A stretch of DNA of 36,627 bases from the NCBI GenBank assembly GCA_945874535.1, contig CAMCGZ010000005.1, positions 93,276 to 129,902 on the forward strand, read 5' to 3'. The position numbers and the translations under genes are program-made. Source of the DNA: Bdellovibrio sp. ZAP7. Its GTDB lineage: Bacteria > Bdellovibrionota > UBA1018 > CAIMNF01. Below, one piece after another: positions 18,973 to 28,499 of this stretch (its first letter is position 1; every line of letters begins with the position of its first letter). A model generated the notes under the pieces. That model was not told the origin of the DNA. It made no database searches and was given only the letters and a program-made list of their open reading frames with translations.

Positions 18973-19049
18973 GGGCCATTAGCTCAGCTGGTTAGAGCGG
19001 TCCGCTCATAACGGATTGGTCGCTGGTTCAAGTCCGGCATGGCCCACCA
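18973..19049 (+). tRNA. tRNA with CAU anticodon, tRNA-Ile2 (lysidine) type
   Basis: A complete 77-base cloverleaf. The acceptor GGGCCAT/ATGGCCC, D-stem GCTC/GAGC, anticodon stem GTCCG/CGGAT with loop CTCATAA (anticodon CAT), variable loop TGGTC and T-arm GCTGG-TTCAAGT-CCGGC are all paired, and CCA is encoded. The loop CTCATAA and the segment TTGGTCGCTGGTTCAAGTCC closely resemble E. coli ileX, so isoleucine after TilS lysidine modification is the likely identity; elongator Met is the alternative. Its 3' end is the left boundary of the AT-rich element. Confidence 0.93.
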
Positions 19050-20665
19050 AAAGTCAAGCTGGTCGAACACTCGACCGGTTTACATAAATGGGAGTTGGCA
19101 TAAACCAACTCCCTTTTTATTTTAGAGCGTCCCAATCCATAACCAATTTCAATTCGATCTGGAAAAATCTCAATCTTTTCAATCAAACTCGTCACAATTT
19201 TTTGTTTTTTAGCGGTGGTAAGACCACTGGCCTTTAAATCTCGTAAAACTTCCAACAACTTTTCGTAGCTGATGGCATTGGTTGGGATTTCCTTTTCCAA
19301 TTCCTCATCTTTGAGTTTCAGAATCTTCTCATCTAATTCCCGCTTTTCAATTTCTAGCTTTTCCATCTGTTTATAAATGGGTGCAGCCGAAACTTCCCTA
19401 GGAAGTTCGGCAAGCCTAAGCGTAAGAGCATCGGTTTGAGCGTTGATGGCATAGGTTTTATTCTTAAGCCGCTCAATTTCATGGGTGAAGTTGGTTTGAT
19501 TTTTCTTCTTCATGACCGCTGAAATTAATTCCTCGGACAAACTTCCACTAAGCACTTGTTCAATATCGTTCCAAACCATTTCCTCAGCTTTCTCGGCCGG
19601 AATCCTATGGGGATCACAGTTGTAGATTTTTTCAGCTAGGCCACTTTGGATTTTAGTTCTCCTTCCATGTTCATAGTAGGGATGCTTCTTATTCTTTCCA
19701 TGAGCAGACTTGCCCGACATTTTTTCACCACAAGTTCCGCAATAAATAACTTCCGTTAGAATAAAAGGAAAGCGACTATCGGTTTCTGGTTTCTTGGCAC
19801 AGTGATTCTTTGAAAGTTTCTCTTGCACTCGATTAAACATGACCTCATCAAGAATCGGCTCCCAGACGGCTTTCGCTTCTTTTTTACCGGCCTTGGTACT
19901 AAAAACCTTAATCCCAATATAGCTTTTACTGGTGAGCATGGTATGAAGAGTGTCGGTTTTAAAATGTCCTGCTCGCACCCATCCACTGCCTTCCATTTTC
20001 TTACGAAGACTAAAGCCATTTTCATTAAGCCATAAACACGCTGACGACAGCGTGCCTTGATCGAGGAATGCCTTGAAGGCAGTTTTAACCACTTCTGCTT
20101 CTTCGGGATGCACGTCAAGACTTCCCCGAGTGGCAGACAAGCGATAACCAAATGGAACAGCTCCACCATTATAAAGTCCACGCTCCGCTCGAATTTTGAA
20201 GCTGGCCGCAATTCTTTCTGAAGTAGTACGACGTTCAAATTCGGCGAAGTTGGCAAAACTTTTTAGCATGAGTTCACCCGAAGCGGTGGTGGTATCAAAA
20301 TATTCTCTGAGTGAATGGAGTTCGCAGCCAATAGTCTTGAACATATCCCACATCTGCTCAAAGTCTTTTGTACTTCGAGAAAGACGGGATAATTCCGTGA
20401 CCATGACTTGATTTACTTGTCCTTCACGAATCGCTTTTAAAAGCTTCTGAAGACCCGGTCGATTCATGTCCTTGGCCGATAATCCGGCATCGATGAATAC
20501 GCCTGCAATCTCGCAAGACCTGCCCATATCCTGCTGATAGCGGACGGTTTGACGCAATCGTTCCTCTTGGTTCTTAATTGAACCTTCGGGATTTTCAGCT
20601 TGTTCTTCGGTTGATACGCGGACGTAGAGTCCGATCTTTAAATGTCTAGATTCTGCTGGATTCAT
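19028..20665 (-). CDS. Large serine recombinase (integrase)
   Basis: 545 residues. The N-terminal resolvase domain (about 10-150) starts IGLYVRVSTEEQ with catalytic Ser18 and includes ELSRLSRSTKDFEQM and FAEFERRTTSERI. A recombinase DNA-binding domain (GGAVPFGYRL, about 175-275), a zinc ribbon (YCGTCGEKMSGK) and a long coiled coil (about 390-460) follow, the usual order for large serine integrases. It catalyses integration and excision through a Ser-DNA intermediate. The final residues GGPCRT are encoded antisense to the tRNA 3' end, so the natural stop may have been lost on insertion. It follows the 63-residue ORF by two bases. Confidence 0.95.
   Translation of the reverse strand: MNPAESRHLKIGLYVRVSTEEQAENPEGSIKNQEERLRQTVRYQQDMGRSCEIAGVFIDAGLSAKDMNRPGLQKLLKAIREGQVNQVMVTELSRLSRSTKDFEQMWDMFKTIGCELHSLREYFDTTTASGELMLKSFANFAEFERRTTSERIAASFKIRAERGLYNGGAVPFGYRLSATRGSLDVHPEEAEVVKTAFKAFLDQGTLSSACLWLNENGFSLRKKMEGSGWVRAGHFKTDTLHTMLTSKSYIGIKVFSTKAGKKEAKAVWEPILDEVMFNRVQEKLSKNHCAKKPETDSRFPFILTEVIYCGTCGEKMSGKSAHGKNKKHPYYEHGRRTKIQSGLAEKIYNCDPHRIPAEKAEEMVWNDIEQVLSGSLSEELISAVMKKKNQTNFTHEIERLKNKTYAINAQTDALTLRLAELPREVSAAPIYKQMEKLEIEKRELDEKILKLKDEELEKEIPTNAISYEKLLEVLRDLKASGLTTAKKQKIVTSLIEKIEIFPDRIEIGYGLGRSKIKRELVYANSHLCKPVECSTSLTFGGPCRT
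19090..19123 (+). terminator. Intrinsic terminator for the tRNA, inside the recombinase 3' end
   Basis: GGGAGTTGG and CCAACTCCC form a perfect nine-base stem with loop CATAAA, followed on the plus strand by TTTTTATTTT. It stands 40 bases past the tRNA and is antisense to the last codons of the recombinase. It probably ends tRNA transcription, or shields the integrase gene from readthrough out of the host side. Confidence 0.85.
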
Positions 20666-20667
20666 GT

Positions 20668-20859
20668 TTAGCCTGCCTTTCTTTGATCTTGTTCATCACA
20701 AAATTCAATTAATTCAGGTTCAACAGAACGGGTTTTATGAAGCTCGCAAAAAGCATCATAGAACAGTTCTGCTAATTCTTCAATCCGTCTTTTATAAAGT
20801 TCTTGGTCAATTTCGATAATCTTCTTCTCTGTTTTTACTGGGTTCCATTTCTGCTTCAT
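20668..20859 (-). CDS. Small charged protein upstream of the recombinase
   Basis: 63 residues, rich in Glu and Lys, mostly helical by composition, with no signal peptide. AAGGG precedes ATG 20859. It ends two bases before the recombinase start, and its final codons contain AAAGGCAGG, which can serve as the recombinase ribosome site, so the two are coupled. A role as a directionality or accessory factor of the recombinase is plausible by position only. I recognise no family. Confidence 0.6.
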   Translation of the reverse strand: MKQKWNPVKTEKKIIEIDQELYKRRIEELAELFYDAFCELHKTRSVEPELIEFCDEQDQRKAG

Positions 20860-21008
20860 TGATTGCCCTTAATTTTAATTCGGGTTTCTCAAATATTTTT
20901 TTCAATTGGTTCCTCATGTATTTATTCCCGTTTTTTTAGTTTTTATTTCCTCAAATATCTCTCAATTCACCTTCCTCATGCGCCCTAACTCTCATTTCAC
21001 ATACTCTT

Positions 21009-21073
21009 CCGCCGTAAGCACTGACCTCCTACCATCAACATCGTTGGAGGTGGGAGGTCAGTGGTGGAGGCGG
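21009..21073. repeat. Long inverted repeat, candidate oriT or replication origin
   Basis: The arms CACTGACCTCCTACC (21019-21033) and GGTGGGAGGTCAGTG (21049-21063) pair over 15 bases with one G-T wobble around a 15-base loop. Outside them CCGCC (21009-21013) and GGCGG (21069-21073) pair again. No T-run follows on either strand, so it is not a normal terminator. It is a GC-rich island in AT-rich DNA, between the relaxation-like gene and the recombinase operon. Confidence 0.6.
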
Positions 21074-21081
21074 CTTTTCCC

Positions 21082-21918
21082 TCAACTCGCATTATTTAAA
21101 ATAGGCGCGTGATTCTCTTTAGTTAGTTCTACTTTTGATTCATTCTTTTTTTCATCGAGGGTGCTCAGGTGGTGAGCAGTCACCTGAGCAGGTAAAGGTG
21201 TAAAGACTTCACCAATTTTTCTCAGAGGCTCAATGCTTATCAAGTTTGCTGTGAGTGGGTTTTTCATCACATCATCGAGGTAGGAATAAAAGATATTTGT
21301 TCCTTTCGCAAAATGGCGGCAATCATTCCAGACCTTATGAATCTGGTTCGTCATGGATTTGCGGGGGATAATGTACCATACACCTAAAAGATCATTGGCC
21401 TCTCGGTAGTGGCTCAGGACTTTTTTCAGTTTGGTTTCATTCTTCAATGTCAGTTCCATTTCTACAGCCACCGATTCCATTTTGCCTTTTACACAAGTGC
21501 TAATAAGCGCATCAGGAATCACCCGATCTTTCATTCCGCGAAGACCATACTTTCTAAACGCCATGGAGCGGATTTCATGTTCAGGTGTCCATGAGCGAGC
21601 AATGCCGCCTTCTTCAAGAAGCAATCGTAATGACAATAATTTGTAGTCATGCTCCAAAAGGTTTTTGCTCCAATGCCTTTTAGGTACGGAAACACTGACA
21701 CTTTCAGCTCCACGTTCTGTCACTGACCATAGCACTTCATGACTTGGAAGTGTTGCCACTCGGGTAATCAGTTTTTTATCTTCAAGCAAGCGTAGCCGTC
21801 TTAAAATGGTCGTTAGCGCAATTTCATTAAAGACAATTTTTGCAATCTGTTGGGTCGAAAGCATTCCATATTTGGAAAGCCTTCTAAAAAGTTCAAGGTC
21901 ACGTTGAGTCGTTTGCAT
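21082..21918 (-). CDS. Replication-relaxation-like winged-helix protein
   Basis: 278 residues. The first 75 form a winged helix (RDLELFRRLSKYGMLSTQQI, then RRLRLLEDKKLI and VTERGAE), as in the replication-relaxation family found on plasmids and integrative elements. The rest has the family-like pattern of a nuclease-fold-like body (HDYKLLSLRL, PDALISTCVKG, VAVEMELTLKNETKL), where E and K residues resemble a PD-(D/E)xK core, though I cannot prove activity. GGGGGA precedes ATG 21918. It follows the membrane coiled-coil gene by eight bases and probably forms an operon with it. Function in mobilisation or copy control is inferred from family and setting. Confidence 0.65.
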   Translation of the reverse strand: MQTTQRDLELFRRLSKYGMLSTQQIAKIVFNEIALTTILRRLRLLEDKKLITRVATLPSHEVLWSVTERGAESVSVSVPKRHWSKNLLEHDYKLLSLRLLLEEGGIARSWTPEHEIRSMAFRKYGLRGMKDRVIPDALISTCVKGKMESVAVEMELTLKNETKLKKVLSHYREANDLLGVWYIIPRKSMTNQIHKVWNDCRHFAKGTNIFYSYLDDVMKNPLTANLISIEPLRKIGEVFTPLPAQVTAHHLSTLDEKKNESKVELTKENHAPILNNAS

Positions 21919-21926
21919 GAATCCCC

Positions 21927-22364
21927 CTAAAGAAAATTCTTAAGCGCACGGCCAGTCACATCTTCTGCCGTACGCTCATACTGTTTCACTTTCTCAAGTA
22001 GGTTCTTTTCAATTTGTTCAAATTCTTTTTTCTCTCGTTGACGAGACTGTTCTGATTTCTGCAAATATTCTTGGAGCACTTCACGCTCCATTTGAGTTTT
22101 CTTTAAACTCGTCTGAGCAAATTGTAGATTCTCTTCAAGTGGCTTGATCGGCTTATTGACAAGTTTCTTCCCATAAATCACTCCACCATAAAACATCCAG
22201 CTAAACAGGCTCCACTTGCAACCCAACCGAATGAAAGGCCAGAGTGGGTTCGTAGGAAAGTTTCCTTTCAGTTTTAAAAATAAAACTAAAGAACCGTAGA
22301 AAAATACCGTCACGATCATCAAATAGTGGACGGGTTTAAGATCATTTGATTTTACTTCATCCAT
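21927..22364 (-). CDS. Membrane protein with cytoplasmic coiled coil
   Basis: 145 residues. Two hydrophobic segments (about 13-31 and 50-66) are followed by a charged heptad-rich region (about 75-135, with LQFAQTSLKKTQMEREVLQ). GGAGG stands upstream of ATG 22364. It is the first gene of a pair with the replication-relaxation-like gene. A partner role, tethering that protein at the membrane, would fit the arrangement but is inference. No named family is recognised. Confidence 0.6.
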   Translation of the reverse strand: MDEVKSNDLKPVHYLMIVTVFFYGSLVLFLKLKGNFPTNPLWPFIRLGCKWSLFSWMFYGGVIYGKKLVNKPIKPLEENLQFAQTSLKKTQMEREVLQEYLQKSEQSRQREKKEFEQIEKNLLEKVKQYERTAEDVTGRALKNFL

Positions 22365-22636
22365 GTTTTTCCTCCCTCTGGACGTAGTTCTCCCTGCACT
22401 GAAAATTCAGCTCAAAAGGTCATGCGCAAAAAGTTAGAATCAAATTGTTTAAGCAATCAAAAGGTCTTAGAATGAAAGGAACCTTCACGCTCCCTTCAAA
22501 GTTTTTTACCTTGTTATCAATGTCCTCCTTCGTCCTCACCACAAAATTGTGATGAATCTTTCCTTAGATCACAAACGAGGTATTGAAGTCATGGGACGGA
22601 TAGTTAAATTGATGGGTGCTCAAACTTTGGGATAGA
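22365..22636. other. AT-rich intergenic stretch
   Basis: No convincing gene. It must contain the promoter of the membrane coiled-coil gene and the end of the toxin transcript. CACAA/TTGTG forms a tiny dyad near 22540-22551. A 27-codon plus-strand frame (22552-22635) has no ribosome site and is not called. Confidence 0.5.
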
Positions 22637-22975
22637 TTAATTCAAATCTAAAACCGTCTTTAAACAAGAATCAACATTGGCCATGTCGGTAATCGTTAGT
22701 TGAACAAGCTTTCTTGTGAGACAAGTTTTCTCAATCGTAAAAATAGAGGCGCAACGGATAATTGTAGGCTTTTTCAGGTTAATAAGAACGTCTTCTGAGG
22801 GGTTAGTTGGTTTGTTTTTACCACTTGAGTTTTGAAGCGAAGTTAGTTTGACGACATTAATATCTAACAAGTTCGGAGCTTGATTTCGTAGATTATTGCT
22901 CACAATCAAAAGAGGGCGAGGCTTTTGTTCTGGATCGTTAGGCCACACTCCTAACCAAATTTCTCCTCTCATCAT
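22637..22975 (-). CDS. MazF/PemK-family toxin
   Basis: 112 residues. It begins MMRGEIWLGVWPND, then KPRPLLIVSNN, the conserved beta strands of the PemK/MazF fold, and continues VVKLTS and IRCASIFTIEK, which correspond to the later strands with the conserved Arg/Ser region. Such toxins are ribosome-independent endoribonucleases that cut mRNA at short sites. Its ATG overlaps the last base of the antitoxin stop codon, the usual antitoxin-first order. It probably stabilises the element. Confidence 0.85.
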   Translation of the reverse strand: MMRGEIWLGVWPNDPEQKPRPLLIVSNNLRNQAPNLLDINVVKLTSLQNSSGKNKPTNPSEDVLINLKKPTIIRCASIFTIEKTCLTRKLVQLTITDMANVDSCLKTVLDLN

Positions 22976-23247
22976 TAGTAGAAATCCTCAACTTCATCTT
23001 CTGCATCAAAGGCTTTAGCAGACATCATCATCGTTGAAGAAAGGCCGTGTTTAGTTTTCTTACGGGGCTTCTCATTGGAGATTTCTTCATTAAAACGGAT
23101 GTAGTCCTGTTCCACCTTCATTTGGTGTTCTAATGTTAAACCCTTCAAGATAAGTTCATTAATTCGGCTACTCAATTGGCCTTTGGGAATACTTTCAAGA
23201 AAAGTCTCAATTTCTTCAGTTGGATAAAATGCTTTTTTAAGGTTCAT
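22975..23247 (-). CDS. Antitoxin of the MazF-like toxin, probable ribbon-helix-helix
   Basis: 90 residues. The N-terminal part (KKAFYPTEEIETFLESIPKG, then SSRINELILKGL) fits a ribbon-helix-helix DNA-binding domain. The C-terminal half is charged and ends in an acidic tail, as expected for toxin wrapping. It has a strong ribosome site (GGGGGTGA) before ATG 23247 and a good promoter 26 bases further up. It would neutralise the toxin and repress the operon. Identification rests on position and fold pattern, not on a clear family signature. Confidence 0.75.
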   Translation of the reverse strand: MNLKKAFYPTEEIETFLESIPKGQLSSRINELILKGLTLEHQMKVEQDYIRFNEEISNEKPRKKTKHGLSSTMMMSAKAFDAEDEVEDFY

Positions 23248-23272
23248 AAATCACCCCCATTCTTCAGCTATC

Positions 23273-23301
23273 ATTGTATCCCTTGTCGTCATTTTTGTAA
23301 A
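23273..23301 (-). promoter_or_regulatory. Sigma70-type promoter of the toxin-antitoxin operon
   Basis: On the minus strand TTTACA and TACAAT are separated by exactly 17 bases and lie just upstream of the antitoxin gene. The surrounding AT-rich sequence is the likely operator region, although no clean palindrome stands out. Confidence 0.7.
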
Positions 23302-23501
23302 CAAAATTAGATATAAATAAATCTACAAATATGGATACTAAAAAGGGGTCAAATTTATCTATATCTGTCTGCAATATGACCAGTTTTTAGTCACTTGACT
23401 AGCCTTAGTTCACTAAAGGCCATAAACATTATTTTAAGTATTTGTAATTATTGGTTATTTACCGAGAGTACTTGGCTCAATTCATGCTGAATTGGATTCA
23501 T

Positions 23502-24266
23502 ATGATACAGCTGCCGAACCTTCATATTGTGGCTTTAGCAATTCTCAGCTTTACGCTGAATAGTCCCTCTTTTGCCATCGTTGGCGGAAAAATTCTTACT
23601 TCCAGCGATGATCTTGCCAAGCGTACTGTCGTGGTTGCAAAAATGCCTACAAATGCAACTCGAGCTGACTACGATTTATATGGCCTGTGTTCAGGTGTTC
23701 TCATTTCTCCTAATAAGGTTCTTACGGCTGCACATTGTGTTGCTTACGAAGCACCTGATTCGATTCGAGTTGGTTTTACCATCACTACAGAAGAAAAAAA
23801 TATAAACTCATACATTCAAGGTAAAGAAATCCTCATTCATCCTTCTTATAACTCTGAAAACAGTATGAATGACCTTGCTATTATTGAAATCGTAAAAGTG
23901 GCTCCCAATGATTACAAGACGACACCAATTATTAGCAATCTCATTGAGGTTAAAAAAAGTGATCAGTTAATACTTTCAGGTTATGGAATTAATGATCCAA
24001 AGACCGGCGATGATGGAATTTTAAAGTCCATTGAGATGTCTCCATATCAAATAAGTCTAATTACAAAAGAACTCATATTTAAAAACAACGGTTATGGAAG
24101 CTGCAAGGGAGACTCTGGTGGCCCAGCTTTTCTAAGGGTTGAGGGAAAACTTTTTATTGCTGGCATAACAAGTCACGGTGAGCAGGGTTACAAGTGTGGC
24201 CAAGGATACTCATATTATTCCGATCTACGGAAATTTTCTAAATGGATACGGAGCTTGAACAAATGA
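23502..24266 (+). CDS. Secreted S1-family (chymotrypsin-fold) serine protease
   Basis: 254 residues from ATG 23502, which gives a standard signal peptide; ATG 23484 and the longer frame are alternatives. The mature enzyme would begin IVGG right after the signal sequence (SPSFA), so signal peptidase itself may create the active N-terminus without a propeptide. The catalytic triad is His78 (TAAHC), Asp124 (NDLAI) and Ser205 (GDSGGP). The S1-pocket base, six residues before the catalytic Ser, is Gly rather than the Asp of trypsin, so cleavage after Arg/Lys is doubtful and a chymotrypsin- or elastase-like preference is more likely. The stop overlaps the next gene's start. Confidence 0.92.
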   Translation: MIQLPNLHIVALAILSFTLNSPSFAIVGGKILTSSDDLAKRTVVVAKMPTNATRADYDLYGLCSGVLISPNKVLTAAHCVAYEAPDSIRVGFTITTEEKNINSYIQGKEILIHPSYNSENSMNDLAIIEIVKVAPNDYKTTPIISNLIEVKKSDQLILSGYGINDPKTGDDGILKSIEMSPYQISLITKELIFKNNGYGSCKGDSGGPAFLRVEGKLFIAGITSHGEQGYKCGQGYSYYSDLRKFSKWIRSLNK

Positions 24267-25102
24267 GAAGTGCTTTAATACTTGTAGGTTTTCTTTTAAA
24301 TGGATTTTCTTATGCTAAAGATTGTGATCCAAATGTTCTTGTCCTTGATTCTGTCCAGGAGCAGATGAACCTCACGTTTGACAACAATTACTATCTGAAA
24401 AAATCACTTTCCCAAGAAAAATTCTGTAAAGTCATTTCCAGGCTTTCAACACTCTTTCCAAGTCAAAGTGGAATTCCAATAAAATTTAGCGCACTCTGGG
24501 ATCTGCCCGATCCCAATGCACTTGCTGACTTTAGTAACTATGAAAATGCATACACGGTAGACGTGTACGGTGGCCTACTAAATCTCAATCATTTCACTGA
24601 AGGTGCACTCGTAGCAATTACATGTCATGAATTGGGCCATATCATGGGCGGTACAAAAAAATCCAGACGACTTTGGGATGGGAAAAAGCAACCACTAAAT
24701 ACGGCCGAAGGTTTTGCTGATTACTTTGCCTCTCATGTATGTATGAAAAAGTATTATTCCAATGTTAGCGATTTTGAAGCTCCAAGAAATGAAAGAATTG
24801 GCCTTCAATGTGAAAAAGAAGCTAACAAGGCACTTTGCTTAAATGTTTTAAATGCTGCATTCGATGACTTCTATTCCATATCTAAGGGTGAAGCAAACCT
24901 TGATTTGCCTTCCAAAGCGATTGCTGCAAATACATCTTATGCTCCTCAAAATCATCCGGCAGCCAACTGTCGCTTTGATATAATGATCGCTGGCTATTTA
25001 TGCTCTAATGTCGATCGGCCTTGCGGTTTCAATAAGAATGACCAGTACACAGGCAAAGGTAACCAAAATGCGTTACCTCCAAGATGTTTCTTCAAACCAT
25101 AA
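24263..25102 (+). CDS. Secreted HExxH metalloprotease
   Basis: 279 residues from ATG 24263, which overlaps the serine protease stop (ATGA). A signal peptide (MRSALILVGFLLNGFSYA) comes first. HELGH at 122-126 gives two zinc ligands and the catalytic Glu. AEGFADYFA (Glu149) follows 23 residues later and fits a gluzincin-type third ligand. The C-terminal part has several cysteines (CEKE, CLNV, CRFD, CSNV, CGFN, CFFKP) for disulfides. I cannot assign a MEROPS family. Coupling to the serine protease implies joint secretion and perhaps a shared substrate or an activation cascade. Confidence 0.8.
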   Translation: MRSALILVGFLLNGFSYAKDCDPNVLVLDSVQEQMNLTFDNNYYLKKSLSQEKFCKVISRLSTLFPSQSGIPIKFSALWDLPDPNALADFSNYENAYTVDVYGGLLNLNHFTEGALVAITCHELGHIMGGTKKSRRLWDGKKQPLNTAEGFADYFASHVCMKKYYSNVSDFEAPRNERIGLQCEKEANKALCLNVLNAAFDDFYSISKGEANLDLPSKAIAANTSYAPQNHPAANCRFDIMIAGYLCSNVDRPCGFNKNDQYTGKGNQNALPPRCFFKP

Positions 25103-25110
25103 AAAGTTCA

Positions 25111-25290
25111 TTATTTCTTTTTGTGGTTACTGGCGCTTGGTAAGGTCATTGCCTTTGGCCACTTACTCGCCTGAGAATCCATAATGAGCTGAATTTGCGC
25201 CTTCCTGACCTGAAACAATATCCATGGCAGATTTCCCGAAGCAACGGCTAGAAAAGCAAATGTGTAAGCAATAGAGATGAGTTTACTCAC
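25111..25290 (-). CDS. Small membrane protein, GTG start
   Basis: 59 residues. GTG 25290 overlaps the last eight bases of the helix-turn-helix gene, so translation would be coupled. One hydrophobic helix (about 5-27, ISIAYTFAFLAVASG through WILF) is followed by a basic, polar tail ending in NHKKK. No family is recognised. Its end is nine bases from the end of the metalloprotease gene, on the opposite strand. Confidence 0.5.
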   Translation of the reverse strand: MSKLISIAYTFAFLAVASGNLPWILFQVRKAQIQLIMDSQASKWPKAMTLPSASNHKKK

Positions 25291-25501
25291 GACGGACTCC
25301 TTTTTTGTTGCCCGTCCGGTCTAGGCCGTACAGGTAGGTTTTAATCGTCGTCTGGCTGACCCCAAAATGGAGAGCTAGATCAACATTTGTCCACCCGTGT
25401 AATGCCTTAAGAGTTGCGAGCTTCTTTTGGTCTAAGTCTAAGACTTCCCGTTTCCATTGAACCGAGTGTGATCTTTTAACAATCACAGGGTGTTCAACCA
25501 C
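25283..25501 (-). CDS. Small helix-turn-helix protein
   Basis: 72 residues from GTG 25501, supported by GGAGGT nine bases upstream. Residues of about 25-60 (DQKKLATLKALHGWTNVDLA, then HFGVSQTTIKTYL) form a resolvase- or MarR/sigma-like helix-turn-helix. The frame is open for eight codons upstream of the GTG and reads GGGRPK, a motif seen in recombinase and transposase DNA-binding tails. It may be a regulator or excision factor of the element. Its ribosome site coincides with the proposed right attachment site. Confidence 0.6.
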   Translation of the reverse strand: MVEHPVIVKRSHSVQWKREVLDLDQKKLATLKALHGWTNVDLALHFGVSQTTIKTYLYGLDRTGNKKGVRRE

Positions 25502-25514
25502 TTTAGGGCGACCT

Positions 25515-25520
25515 CCACCA
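25515..25520. other. Possible right attachment core (CCACCA)
   Basis: CCACCA here matches the last six bases of the tRNA (19044-19049). Removing everything between them would place the tRNA end about 22 bases before the hydroxylase start. Serine integrases need only a two-base identical core, so short identity is expected, but six bases can also occur by chance. Confidence 0.3.
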
Positions 25521-26254: not shown

Positions 26255-27253
26255 TCAGCGGTGTTTGCAGCAGATCTTTCCGTCGACGGGGCCGAAGACG
26301 GGAACCGTTGTCACGCCGCAAACGCTACCGAAAGACATGCTTCCGCCTGCGCGAGAGCAAAGATCAGATGGATTCACGCAGCACTTGTACCCGGAATTGC
26401 TTCCTGCCGCTGATTTGCAACGAGTGTATTCACTGGCCGTGGCTGGGCTCGTAGCCAGCACCGCAAAAGGGTAAGGGATCAGCACATTCGGTGAGAGGCA
26501 TGCTGGAGTCGGCGTCGGAGTAGCCGTTGGCCTCGGAGTTGGCGTAGGAGTCGGCTTGGGTGTATCAGTGGGCCGTGGGGTCACGGTCGGAGTCGGCTTG
26601 GGTGTTTCGGTGGGCCTTGGAGTCACGGTCGGGCTCGGAGTCGGCCGTGGTGTTTCTGTGGGCCTTGGAGTCACGGTCGGTTTGGGAGTGGGGGTCGGCT
26701 CTTGTCCACACCCGGGAATTCCCGGTGCGCAGCACTTCGGATTGCTGGCGCTCCAAACACAAGAAATACTCTGGTTGACGCTATTGCAACGTTGGCGAGC
26801 AAAAGGAATACCTTGTGGATGCCCGAAATTGAGTACGGGAAGTGAACAGTCATACCCCGGATTTGCGCCCGGAATCGCTTTACAGCAGACTCCGCTCGGG
26901 AATGGGGTGGGCGTTGCCACAGGGGCGACGCAGCAACGGTAACTTTTCGGATCCCGTGTGGCGGAGGCCTCTTTTTGGCACCTTTTGTAATTCACCGTAT
27001 TTTCTGGAAGTAGGGACTGGAAAGGGAAAGGAACCAGCGTGGAAGGGGGACGACATGCCCGCGAAACCGCGACAGCCCGGAGCAATCCCGGTGAAGCGCG
27101 CAGGGGTTGAAGAGCTGATCCCGACTGAATCGATACTGAGGGTCGTGCCCGATTCTCGGAAACTTGGGCCGAGGCCGGTAACTGGCCGGATAAGAACGTC
27201 AGCGCGAAAAATCCGATCAGTACCCTAAAGGAAGAAATTCTTTTTGCCACCAT
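26255..27253 (-). CDS. Secreted Cys-rich protein with Pro/Thr-repeat linker (paralogue A)
   Basis: 332 residues. AGGAGG precedes ATG 27253 and a signal peptide follows ([18 protein letters not shown], ending ASAQ). A short N-terminal region is followed by a Cys-rich module (about 120-190: [17 protein letters not shown], then [20 protein letters not shown] and CCAPGIPGC). A linker of some 55 residues of PTxTPRPT repeats leads to a second Cys-rich module ending GKICCKHR. The Pro/Thr linker is of the kind that joins domains of secreted proteins. It is a clear paralogue of the gene at 27684-28499. No known domain is recognised. Confidence 0.8.
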
Positions 27254-27683: not shown

Positions 27684-28499
27684 TTACCTGCTTTTACAAC
27701 AAATCTTGCCCTGAACAGGACCGAAAATCGGGGACATCGGTCTCGGGCAAGTGCTTCCATTGATCATGACGCCTCCCTTGCGTTTGCAGCTGAGTACGGG
27801 ATCCACGCAACAAACATAGGCGGAATTGGAGCCTGCCGCCTTTTTGCAGTTCGCATACTCCTCGGCCAGTTCCGGTTGGGTCGCCAGGGCACTGAAGGGG
27901 AATGGAATTCCCACTTGAGGAGGAGAGCAAGCCGGTGTCGGAGAAGGAGTGGGACTTGAGCATCCCGGGATTCCTGGGGCACAACACTCTTTGTTCTGAT
28001 TGCTCCACATGCAGGATGCGCCACCGTTGACCTGCACACAGCGCTGGTAGGCGAACGAGATGCCCTGCGGGTGTCCGAAGTTCAACAAAGGAAGTGAACA
28101 GTTATAGCCCGGATTGGCATTCGGTTTGGCCTTACAGCAGGCTCCGCTCGGAAACGGAGAAGGACGTGGCGTCTCCGTTGGACGGGGTGTAGGACTCGCG
28201 CTGGCCGCGCCTTTCCAACGGCAACAGTCATTGCCGGCAATATTCGCGGGGCAACCTGTATTCCAGTTCGGGGCGCTCCCTGGAATCGCCGTATTGTACA
28301 AGCACTCTCCGACCGTGTTCAGATAGCATTGGTTCACCGGAACATTGTTGGCGGAAGAACTCGAAACATTATAGGGGGGGGTCTGGTTGGGATTCGCACA
28401 CGTCACGGATGCGTGAGCCGATGACAAAACCCATGAAGAACCCACCAACCCGAACAAGACCCACCCGCTTAAAACCAGATTTTTGATTCTCGACCTCAC
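27684..28499 (-). CDS. Secreted Cys-rich protein with Pro/Thr linkers (paralogue B)
   Basis: 271 residues from GTG 28499. The start is decided by GGAGGG five bases upstream and by the signal peptide that follows (hydrophobic LVLSGWVLFGLVG, ending AHAS). It shares with its paralogue the module [46 protein letters not shown] and the C-terminal module with KKAAGSNSAYVCCVDP and GKICCKSR. Its Pro/Thr linkers are much shorter, and its N-terminal region has additional Cys pairs. Expected to be extracellular or surface-located with many disulfides. Function unknown. Confidence 0.8.
   Translation of the reverse strand: MRSRIKNLVLSGWVLFGLVGSSWVLSSAHASVTCANPNQTPPYNVSSSSANNVPVNQCYLNTVGECLYNTAIPGSAPNWNTGCPANIAGNDCCRWKGAASASPTPRPTETPRPSPFPSGACCKAKPNANPGYNCSLPLLNFGHPQGISFAYQRCVQVNGGASCMWSNQNKECCAPGIPGCSSPTPSPTPACSPPQVGIPFPFSALATQPELAEEYANCKKAAGSNSAYVCCVDPVLSCKRKGGVMINGSTCPRPMSPIFGPVQGKICCKSR

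Follow-up and report, generated by a model that had tools for sequence, protein, structure and literature searches.

What are two protease genes that overlap by four base pairs doing in an integrated element of Bdellovibrio sp. ZAP7, and do their products work together? We addressed this question in a stretch of 36,627 nucleotides, the whole of the DNA that was analysed and hereafter the window. We propose, with a probability of about 0.5, that the two are accessory exported digestive or lytic proteases, carried as cargo of a mobilizable-type element at tRNA-Met and adding general protein digestion. The features on which this argument draws are as follows.

18973..19049, + strand: tRNA-Met (CAT; found by ARAGORN), the attachment gene; its last 6 bp, CCACCA (19044-19049), are one att repeat
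19050..25520: integrated element of 6471 bp, delimited by empty-site comparison, with the second CCACCA at 25515-25520
19028..20665, - strand: large serine recombinase (integrase) that extends with its 3' end into the tRNA gene (Pfam Resolvase 1.2e-33, Recombinase 1e-15, Zn_ribbon_recom 5.2e-11)
21082..21918, - strand: MobC/Replication-relaxation family protein (Pfam Replic_Relax 28.9 bits, cut-off 25.3)
21927..22364, - strand: ORF for a small protein with a membrane segment and coiled coil (by eye), no family above cut-off
22637..22975, - strand: PemK/MazF-like toxin (Pfam PemK_toxin 1.4e-11)
22975..23247, - strand: putative antitoxin, from its ORF and its position immediately upstream of PemK, no family match
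23502..24266, + strand: S1A chymotrypsin-fold serine protease, exported as judged by eye; mature start I26-V-G-G, Gly at position 189
24263..25102, + strand: Cys-rich HExxH...EGxAD gluzincin, exported as judged by eye; divergent member of an unnamed Bdellovibrionota family
25283..25501, - strand: small HTH-like protein, no model over cut-off; homologues on L260, L261 and L235

The integrated element

The proteases are cargo of an integrated element, a claim that is well supported because two congeners, G003 and G010, show empty sites in which tRNA-Met lies directly beside a fatty-acid-hydroxylase gene. The window aligns with these sites (loci L134 and L135) up to 19049 and again from 25515, the six bases CCACCA being common to both joints; the original prediction had placed the pair within an integrating element, and the empty sites bear this out. 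The flanking fatty-acid-hydroxylase gene is matched in only three of the 13 genomes of the GTDB family, namely the window's own, G003 (80% protein identity) and G010 (76%). The GC content of the element is 40.3%, versus 54.5% for the rest of the window.

With a serine recombinase, two empty sites and a 6-bp repeat, the element corresponds to an integrative mobilizable element in its recombinase and att features. Profile scans of its ORFs (seven against Pfam, eight against NCBIfam) recognised no relaxase and only the MobC/Replic_Relax protein, which scored 42.4 bits against NCBIfam MobC_subf, below the cut-off of 200. Copies of the recombinase that are 78-79% identical occur in G172 and G143. 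Across 368 genomes of the phylum, own genome included, there are relatives of the recombinase in 70 (E<=1e-90) and of MobC in 142 (E<=0.001). The small HTH-like protein is probably part of the element backbone, because the three stretches that carry its homologues also carry integrases of the same type.

We compared twelve stretches with a MobC relative. Six have a recombinase of the window's type and the other six a tyrosine-recombinase-looking ORF in that place (by eye), and in seven of the twelve a tRNA gene lies there (Leu in five, Met in one, Gly in one). Small ORFs stand beside MobC in ten (by eye), and the protein encoded at 21927..22364 had no sequence match in any of the twelve (E<=1e-3). 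The window's S1 protease and gluzincin likewise had no match in them at this threshold, several of the stretches ending at contig ends.

Elements or remnants with a MobC relative, a relative of the window's recombinase or both (L228-L239, L260-L264 and L266) often sit at tRNA genes, and the toxin-antitoxin and secreted-protein genes near them vary. Beside the element in the window, 26255-27253 and 27684-28499 (- strand) encode two Cys-rich proteins that look exported, are apparently paralogues, contain Pro/Thr repeats (PTPRPTETP...) and match no Pfam family.

We do not claim that the gluzincin is recurrent cargo of tRNA-Met elements, a possibility raised by L263 in G064 (L263:4649-8868), where an integrase 69% identical to that of the window lies at tRNA-Met with a gluzincin 1.6 kb off. 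The only listed repeat there with the tRNA end CCACCA (8 bp, L263:7424) would put this gluzincin outside the element, where we think it probably lies. In genome G063 the L263 neighbour gene and a gluzincin relative are found beyond tlyA and the tRNA instead.

The serine protease

Both protease ORFs are present with their catalytic residues intact, and the overlap that the original prediction described is there: the S1 gene ends in TGA at 24264-24266 and the HExxH gene begins with the ATG at 24263, which together make a 4-bp ATGA overlap. The two signal peptides that it had assigned agree with the signal-peptide-like starts of both proteins, which were judged by eye.

The serine protease matches Pfam Trypsin PF00089 at E 1.7e-25 (90.6 bits, above the cut-off of 20.6). 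Its catalytic triad (H78/D124/S205) and oxyanion motif GDSGGP are intact, the three triad residues being invariant across 20 alignment rows, 19 class relatives and the window, and Cys 63, 79, 201 and 232 occupy the places expected for two canonical disulfides (42-58 and 191-220). The AlphaFold model has a trypsin fold (pLDDT 84.6). In Foldseek it matched 1328 PDB chains at E<=0.001, with a best E of about 1e-15, and the best 50 of the 1328 are chymotrypsin-fold proteases by title.

IVGG begins at residue 26, directly after the SFA-type cleavage site of the signal-peptide-like stretch (by eye), just where it had been predicted. In the model pLDDT stays below 50 in a stretch reaching to residue 25, and the block means are 50 for residues 21-30 and 95 for residues 31-40. 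The start codon is uncertain: ATG23502 gives an n-region without Lys or Arg, and the alternatives are ATG23484 and TTG23451, the latter of which would add one Arg to the n-region. Six residues before the catalytic Ser stands Gly rather than the Asp189 of trypsin, and the description of this enzyme as having Gly at the primary specificity position and not being trypsin-like thus holds.

S1 relatives occur in 34 of 58 class genomes (E<=0.001). The protease is 28-37% identical to its best matches in the phylum (368 genomes, E<=1e-22), and where the class search gave higher identities, the matching pieces were short, with 69 residues at most. By hand count, position 189 is Gly in 11 of the 19 aligned class relatives and Asp in only three, and IVGG-like N-termini lie repeatedly at an AxA-type site or a few residues past it (by eye). 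Because class relatives commonly show both, the absent pro-segment and the absent trypsin specificity are unremarkable. Going by this alignment, S1 proteases of the class commonly have Gly189 and a pro-segment that is short or missing, and the enzyme appears ordinary for its lineage.

The metalloprotease and its family

The second protein is, judging from its sequence, a divergent member of a large, exported-looking, Cys-rich gluzincin family that is common in Bdellovibrionota. Its motifs are HELGH at 122 and EGFAD at 149; it contains ten Cys, and its apparent signal peptide ends in SYA (by eye). The combination of HExxH with a downstream Glu ligand is that of clan MA(E). In an alignment of 90 rows (the window and 89 of 117 non-redundant family ORFs, a number that includes the window's own copy; L110 was left out), H122, E123, H126, E149, D153, C236, R237 and C275 are invariant. 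Of 139 family ORFs with lengths of 240-360 aa, 138 retain the HExxH motif, the exception being L110 with HQIGH.

Within the GTDB family, 12 of 13 genomes (the window's own among them) carry these gluzincins, several of them in two to four copies. The window's genome itself has one more copy (G000:C4), which is more typical of the family and shares 32% identity with that of the element. In genome_contigs there are at least 513 relatives; among the best 80 of these at least 513, which were retained, the MAG labels shown are mostly Bdellovibrionota or Elusimicrobiota, with few Proteobacteria. In MAGs labelled Bacteriovoracaceae (L088, L047, L096, L058, L074 and L078), three to five gluzincin genes stand in tandem. 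At three further loci (L120:3495-5705, L122:3479-5699 and L126:3558-5798) the gluzincin directly follows a gene of 414-419 aa with a similar start in all three. Their surroundings look like a phage structural region (by eye), and in trees these gluzincins group with one from the window's own genus.

We found no Pfam model of the family's own. The window gluzincin scores 14.1 bits against Pfam M48, below the gathering score of 20.3, and M48 matches at E<=0.01 were obtained for 20 of the 90 family members. Its structural model has a mean pLDDT of 81.6, with block means of 87-96 over residues 51-130 and 151-220, and residues 11-40 are modelled at low confidence (block means 45-53). In fold comparison it matches M48, M13 and M4 enzymes at Z 5-7.8, the best chains reaching 7.8, 7.6 and 6.7, and Foldseek returned nothing for it at E<=0.001. 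We dropped an assignment to a neprilysin-, thermolysin- or M48-like family, as these similar scores single out none of them.

Over matches of at least 100 residues the window gluzincin is at most 36% identical to its relatives (one 69-residue piece reaches 40%), and its branch is very long, at 3.2-4.0 changes per column across the trees. Given this branch, its function may have shifted. A join with L213 as closest relative was dropped as a long-branch artefact. In a second tree, from which seven rows (L213 and six others) were dropped and to which six were added, the window row falls at the midpoint root, nearest to L211, L077, L086, L083, L075, L100 and L097. We claim no origin for the window gluzincin from these trees.

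Recurrence of the pair

The pair of S1 and HExxH proteases recurs nowhere in the GTDB family, the class, 368 phylum genomes (where part of the matches at E<=1e-18 and E<=1e-22 were inspected), the best 80 of at least 513 relatives in genome_contigs or IMG/VR. A plasmid search with the gluzincin did not find it either, and the GenBank phage collection held no match to the gluzincin of the window or of L118. The original prediction proposed a look for the same pair in other elements and named the lack of such co-occurrence as one outcome that would refute it; this is the outcome in the collections searched, where the pair was not found again.

This result bears on one rival to our reading, namely that capture of cargo brought the two genes together by chance and that they are co-transcribed, with each enzyme working alone and with no joint function. 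We examined 380 loci (overlaps not collapsed), 184 with a gluzincin and 66 with an S1 gene, and both occur in one locus only in the window's three copies and in the loose associations L037, L080/L224 and L105. Most loci from whole genomes were examined with flanks of 1.5 kb and those from genome_contigs with up to 4 kb, which means that looser associations would escape. In L080 and L224, apparently one gene seen twice, the S1 gene is on the strand opposite the gluzincin, and in L105 it is about 3 kb away. At L037 the two genes are neighbours, but a hairpin and T-run lie between them (by eye) and the serine protease looks V8-like from its motifs (also by eye), and we rejected this locus as a second pair. 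That no second pair is found beyond these loci favours an accident, as does the quite different content near MobC in the sister stretches, where Fic, RelE and AbiEii genes (above Pfam cut-offs) and unknown secreted proteins are found. However, the genes lie on the same strand with a 4-bp overlap, both proteins look exported, and 11 contigs of IMG/VR have a member of the gluzincin family as immediate neighbour of a papain-like protease. An accident of capture is a possible explanation, and we regard it as a doubtful one.

Papain-like proteases beside gluzincins on viral contigs

Among 25 gluzincin loci in IMG/VR, a papain-family (C1) gene lies directly upstream in nine and not in the other 16. 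A papain scan of the same collection gave 37 loci, and in 11 contigs, which were the 11 best matches, the papain gene is followed directly by a gluzincin (L287:9449-13151, L286 and L288-L296; two of the 11 look near-identical). An amidase gene lies directly upstream of the papain gene in nine of the 11 (L292 starts inside the papain gene, and in L294 the amidase is far off on the other strand), and an SNase gene lies close downstream in all 11, with a gap of about 0.8 kb in L287 and L289. The papain assignment has Pfam support of 1e-42 to 1e-53 in the four of four tested; the protein has a lipobox-like signal (by eye), and its expected Cys, His and Asn are invariant in eight rows. Contig L287 also carries genes for terminase large and small subunits, portal, virion proteins, RecT, resolvase and a phage-type amidase, and is by these genes a phage; L111 also carries a virion gene.

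In the bacterial gluzincin loci examined, no comparable match to a papain, an SNase or an amidase was present. Papain relatives occur in 30 of 368 phylum genomes (E<=1e-30), and none of the papain loci inspected from these genomes has both papain and gluzincin. Only four matches to the papain, all weak, were found in the GenBank phage collection. The gluzincins of the module belong to a viral clade of 15 rows with support of 100/99 that excludes the window gluzincin, and any pairing therefore arose separately.

The viral contigs are the main evidence for a second rival, a dedicated lytic pair resembling a phage module, which would open the envelope of a host, competitor or prey to release cells or the element. 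They offer a gluzincin directly after a papain-like lipoprotein, with the amidase and SNase genes alongside, in one case on a contig with phage genes. Against this reading, profile scans recognised no amidase, holin or nuclease in the window's element, the S1 protease is not a papain, and the window gluzincin is outside the viral clade. The module itself is variable: the gluzincin of L110 (L110:4684-5517), inside a complete module, has lost its catalytic Glu and is probably inactive, that of L294 is shortened to 192 aa from the first ATG, and L297 has amidase, papain and SNase without gluzincin. L110 and L297, with the remaining 25 papain loci, which also have no gluzincin, speak against a strict need for it. 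We think a dedicated lytic pair unlikely. The original prediction of a bipartite lytic or predatory function thus gains indirect backing for a two-protease module, through gluzincin and papain genes that lie mostly beside an amidase gene, and finds none in recurrence of the pair itself.

We tentatively suggest that the gluzincin family has been recruited repeatedly by mobile DNA as half of a two-protease lytic module, with a partner class that differs each time. In phages its partner might then be, equally tentatively, a papain-like lipoprotein accompanied by an amidase and a nuclease, and in the element of the window an S1 protease that matures by itself. If true, this would suggest that both settings require two cutters that complement each other.

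Proposed function

Mutual maturation, in which S1 trims a gluzincin pro-segment or the reverse, was the weakest part of the original prediction, because the S1 protease has nothing to trim and the gluzincin relatives mostly have no S1 neighbour. With IVGG directly after the apparent signal peptide, the sequence of S1 needs no such step. A long pro-region is absent from the gluzincin; one of 20-30 residues is possible in the low-confidence residues 11-40, but in nearly all loci examined its relatives have no S1 gene beside them and would need no S1 partner. We consider maturation of one by the other quite improbable. Still further down, and very improbable, is an anti-phage or conflict system of the sort in which S1 domains occur (Lamassu LmuA and Avs1b), since the PADLOC matches to the S1 domain (LmuA E 7.1e-17, Avs1b 6.8e-6) read as generic S1-domain similarity to longer proteins, both window proteins look exported, and no sensor or nuclease partner was recognised.

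We return to the reading of the proteases as accessory digestive or lytic cargo. A 6.47-kb element driven by a large serine recombinase, with a MobC-type gene, brings two proteases near its right end. The 4-bp overlap suggests that both would be made from one message with coupled translation, and their signal-peptide-like starts and Cys content suggest that both would leave the cytoplasm by Sec. Following the S1A mechanism, signal peptidase would free Ile26, which would pair with Asp204 and switch the S1 protease on. From its motif and model, the second protease would act as a zinc gluzincin through H122/E123/H126 and E149. The outcome for a Bdellovibrionota host would most likely be general protein digestion, extracellular or periplasmic, by two unrelated catalytic mechanisms, for feeding or for lysis of other cells; synergy within such a pair is possible. 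The viral contigs give this reading a precedent, since in them too a gluzincin of this family adjoins another exported protease. Counting against it is that the pair is found in one genome only of the collections searched.

Published precedents touch parts of this scheme. Some exported Bdellovibrio proteases are described as rising at prey exit, and the subtilase-type Bd2269 as abundant at that stage and as lysing E. coli from within (PMC12546842, in the parts consulted). As a subtilase, Bd2269 is neither S1 nor gluzincin, and by analogy it is a precedent only for the notion that exported proteases can act in this way. For staphylococcal SplB, exact N-terminal processing is needed, with structural details unlike S1A, according to the parts of PMC3793935 consulted. 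A literature search of titles and abstract starts, with subscription papers mostly outside its coverage, returned nothing on bacterial IVGG proteases freed by signal peptidase, on the papain-gluzincin module or on this gluzincin family.

What is new here is the pairing of a well-known with a little-known exported protease on a mobile element, to which the phage parallel adds interest. The pair itself, exported proteases as accessory cargo, is modest, and the metalloprotease is the part worth following: in bacteria of predatory lineage it marks out an exported family that is large and unnamed and that is also found, beside other exported hydrolases, on viral contigs and in the element of the window. 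Should the phage module act in the lysis of hosts from this phylum, it would reveal what their phages add to the usual endolysin, and would provide a ready assay for the whole gluzincin family.

Comparison with known systems

The S1 protease resembles the S1A (chymotrypsin/trypsin) enzymes of Bdellovibrionota in its triad, GDSGGP, IVGG and the Cys for disulfides 42-58 and 191-220, and differs from S1A trypsins in having no pro-segment between the apparent signal peptide and IVGG and in having Gly189 instead of Asp. BspK (Bd1962), an S1-type protease of the predatory relative B. bacteriovorus, likewise has a trypsin-like domain and a likely signal peptide, but it is reported to cleave after Lys and is annotated as V8-like, unlike the window's enzyme with Gly189 and IVGG (PMC5288813, in the parts consulted). 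BspE is given as S8, not S1, in the portion consulted of PMC6510308.

The gluzincin shares HExxH and the E-x-x-x-D third-ligand motif with M48 enzymes (BepA, Ste24, HtpX), and BepA and Ste24 are the best fold neighbours of its model (Z 7.7-7.8, rmsd 4.3-4.5, 143 residues). Unlike M48 proteins, it falls below the Pfam gathering score, M13 and M4 enzymes fit its fold about as well, and its conserved Cys set and C-terminal CR...C region lie outside the matched part of the Pfam model.

Mobile elements that spread protease genes are also described in Bacteroides (PMC2873492, in the parts consulted), although those are C10 cysteine proteases in another phylum. The amidase-papain-gluzincin-SNase module of IMG/VR is like the window pair in that a gluzincin of this family and an exported protease of a different class are immediate neighbours on mobile DNA, and differs in that its partner is a C1 papain accompanied by an amidase and a nuclease, with gluzincins of a separate clade.
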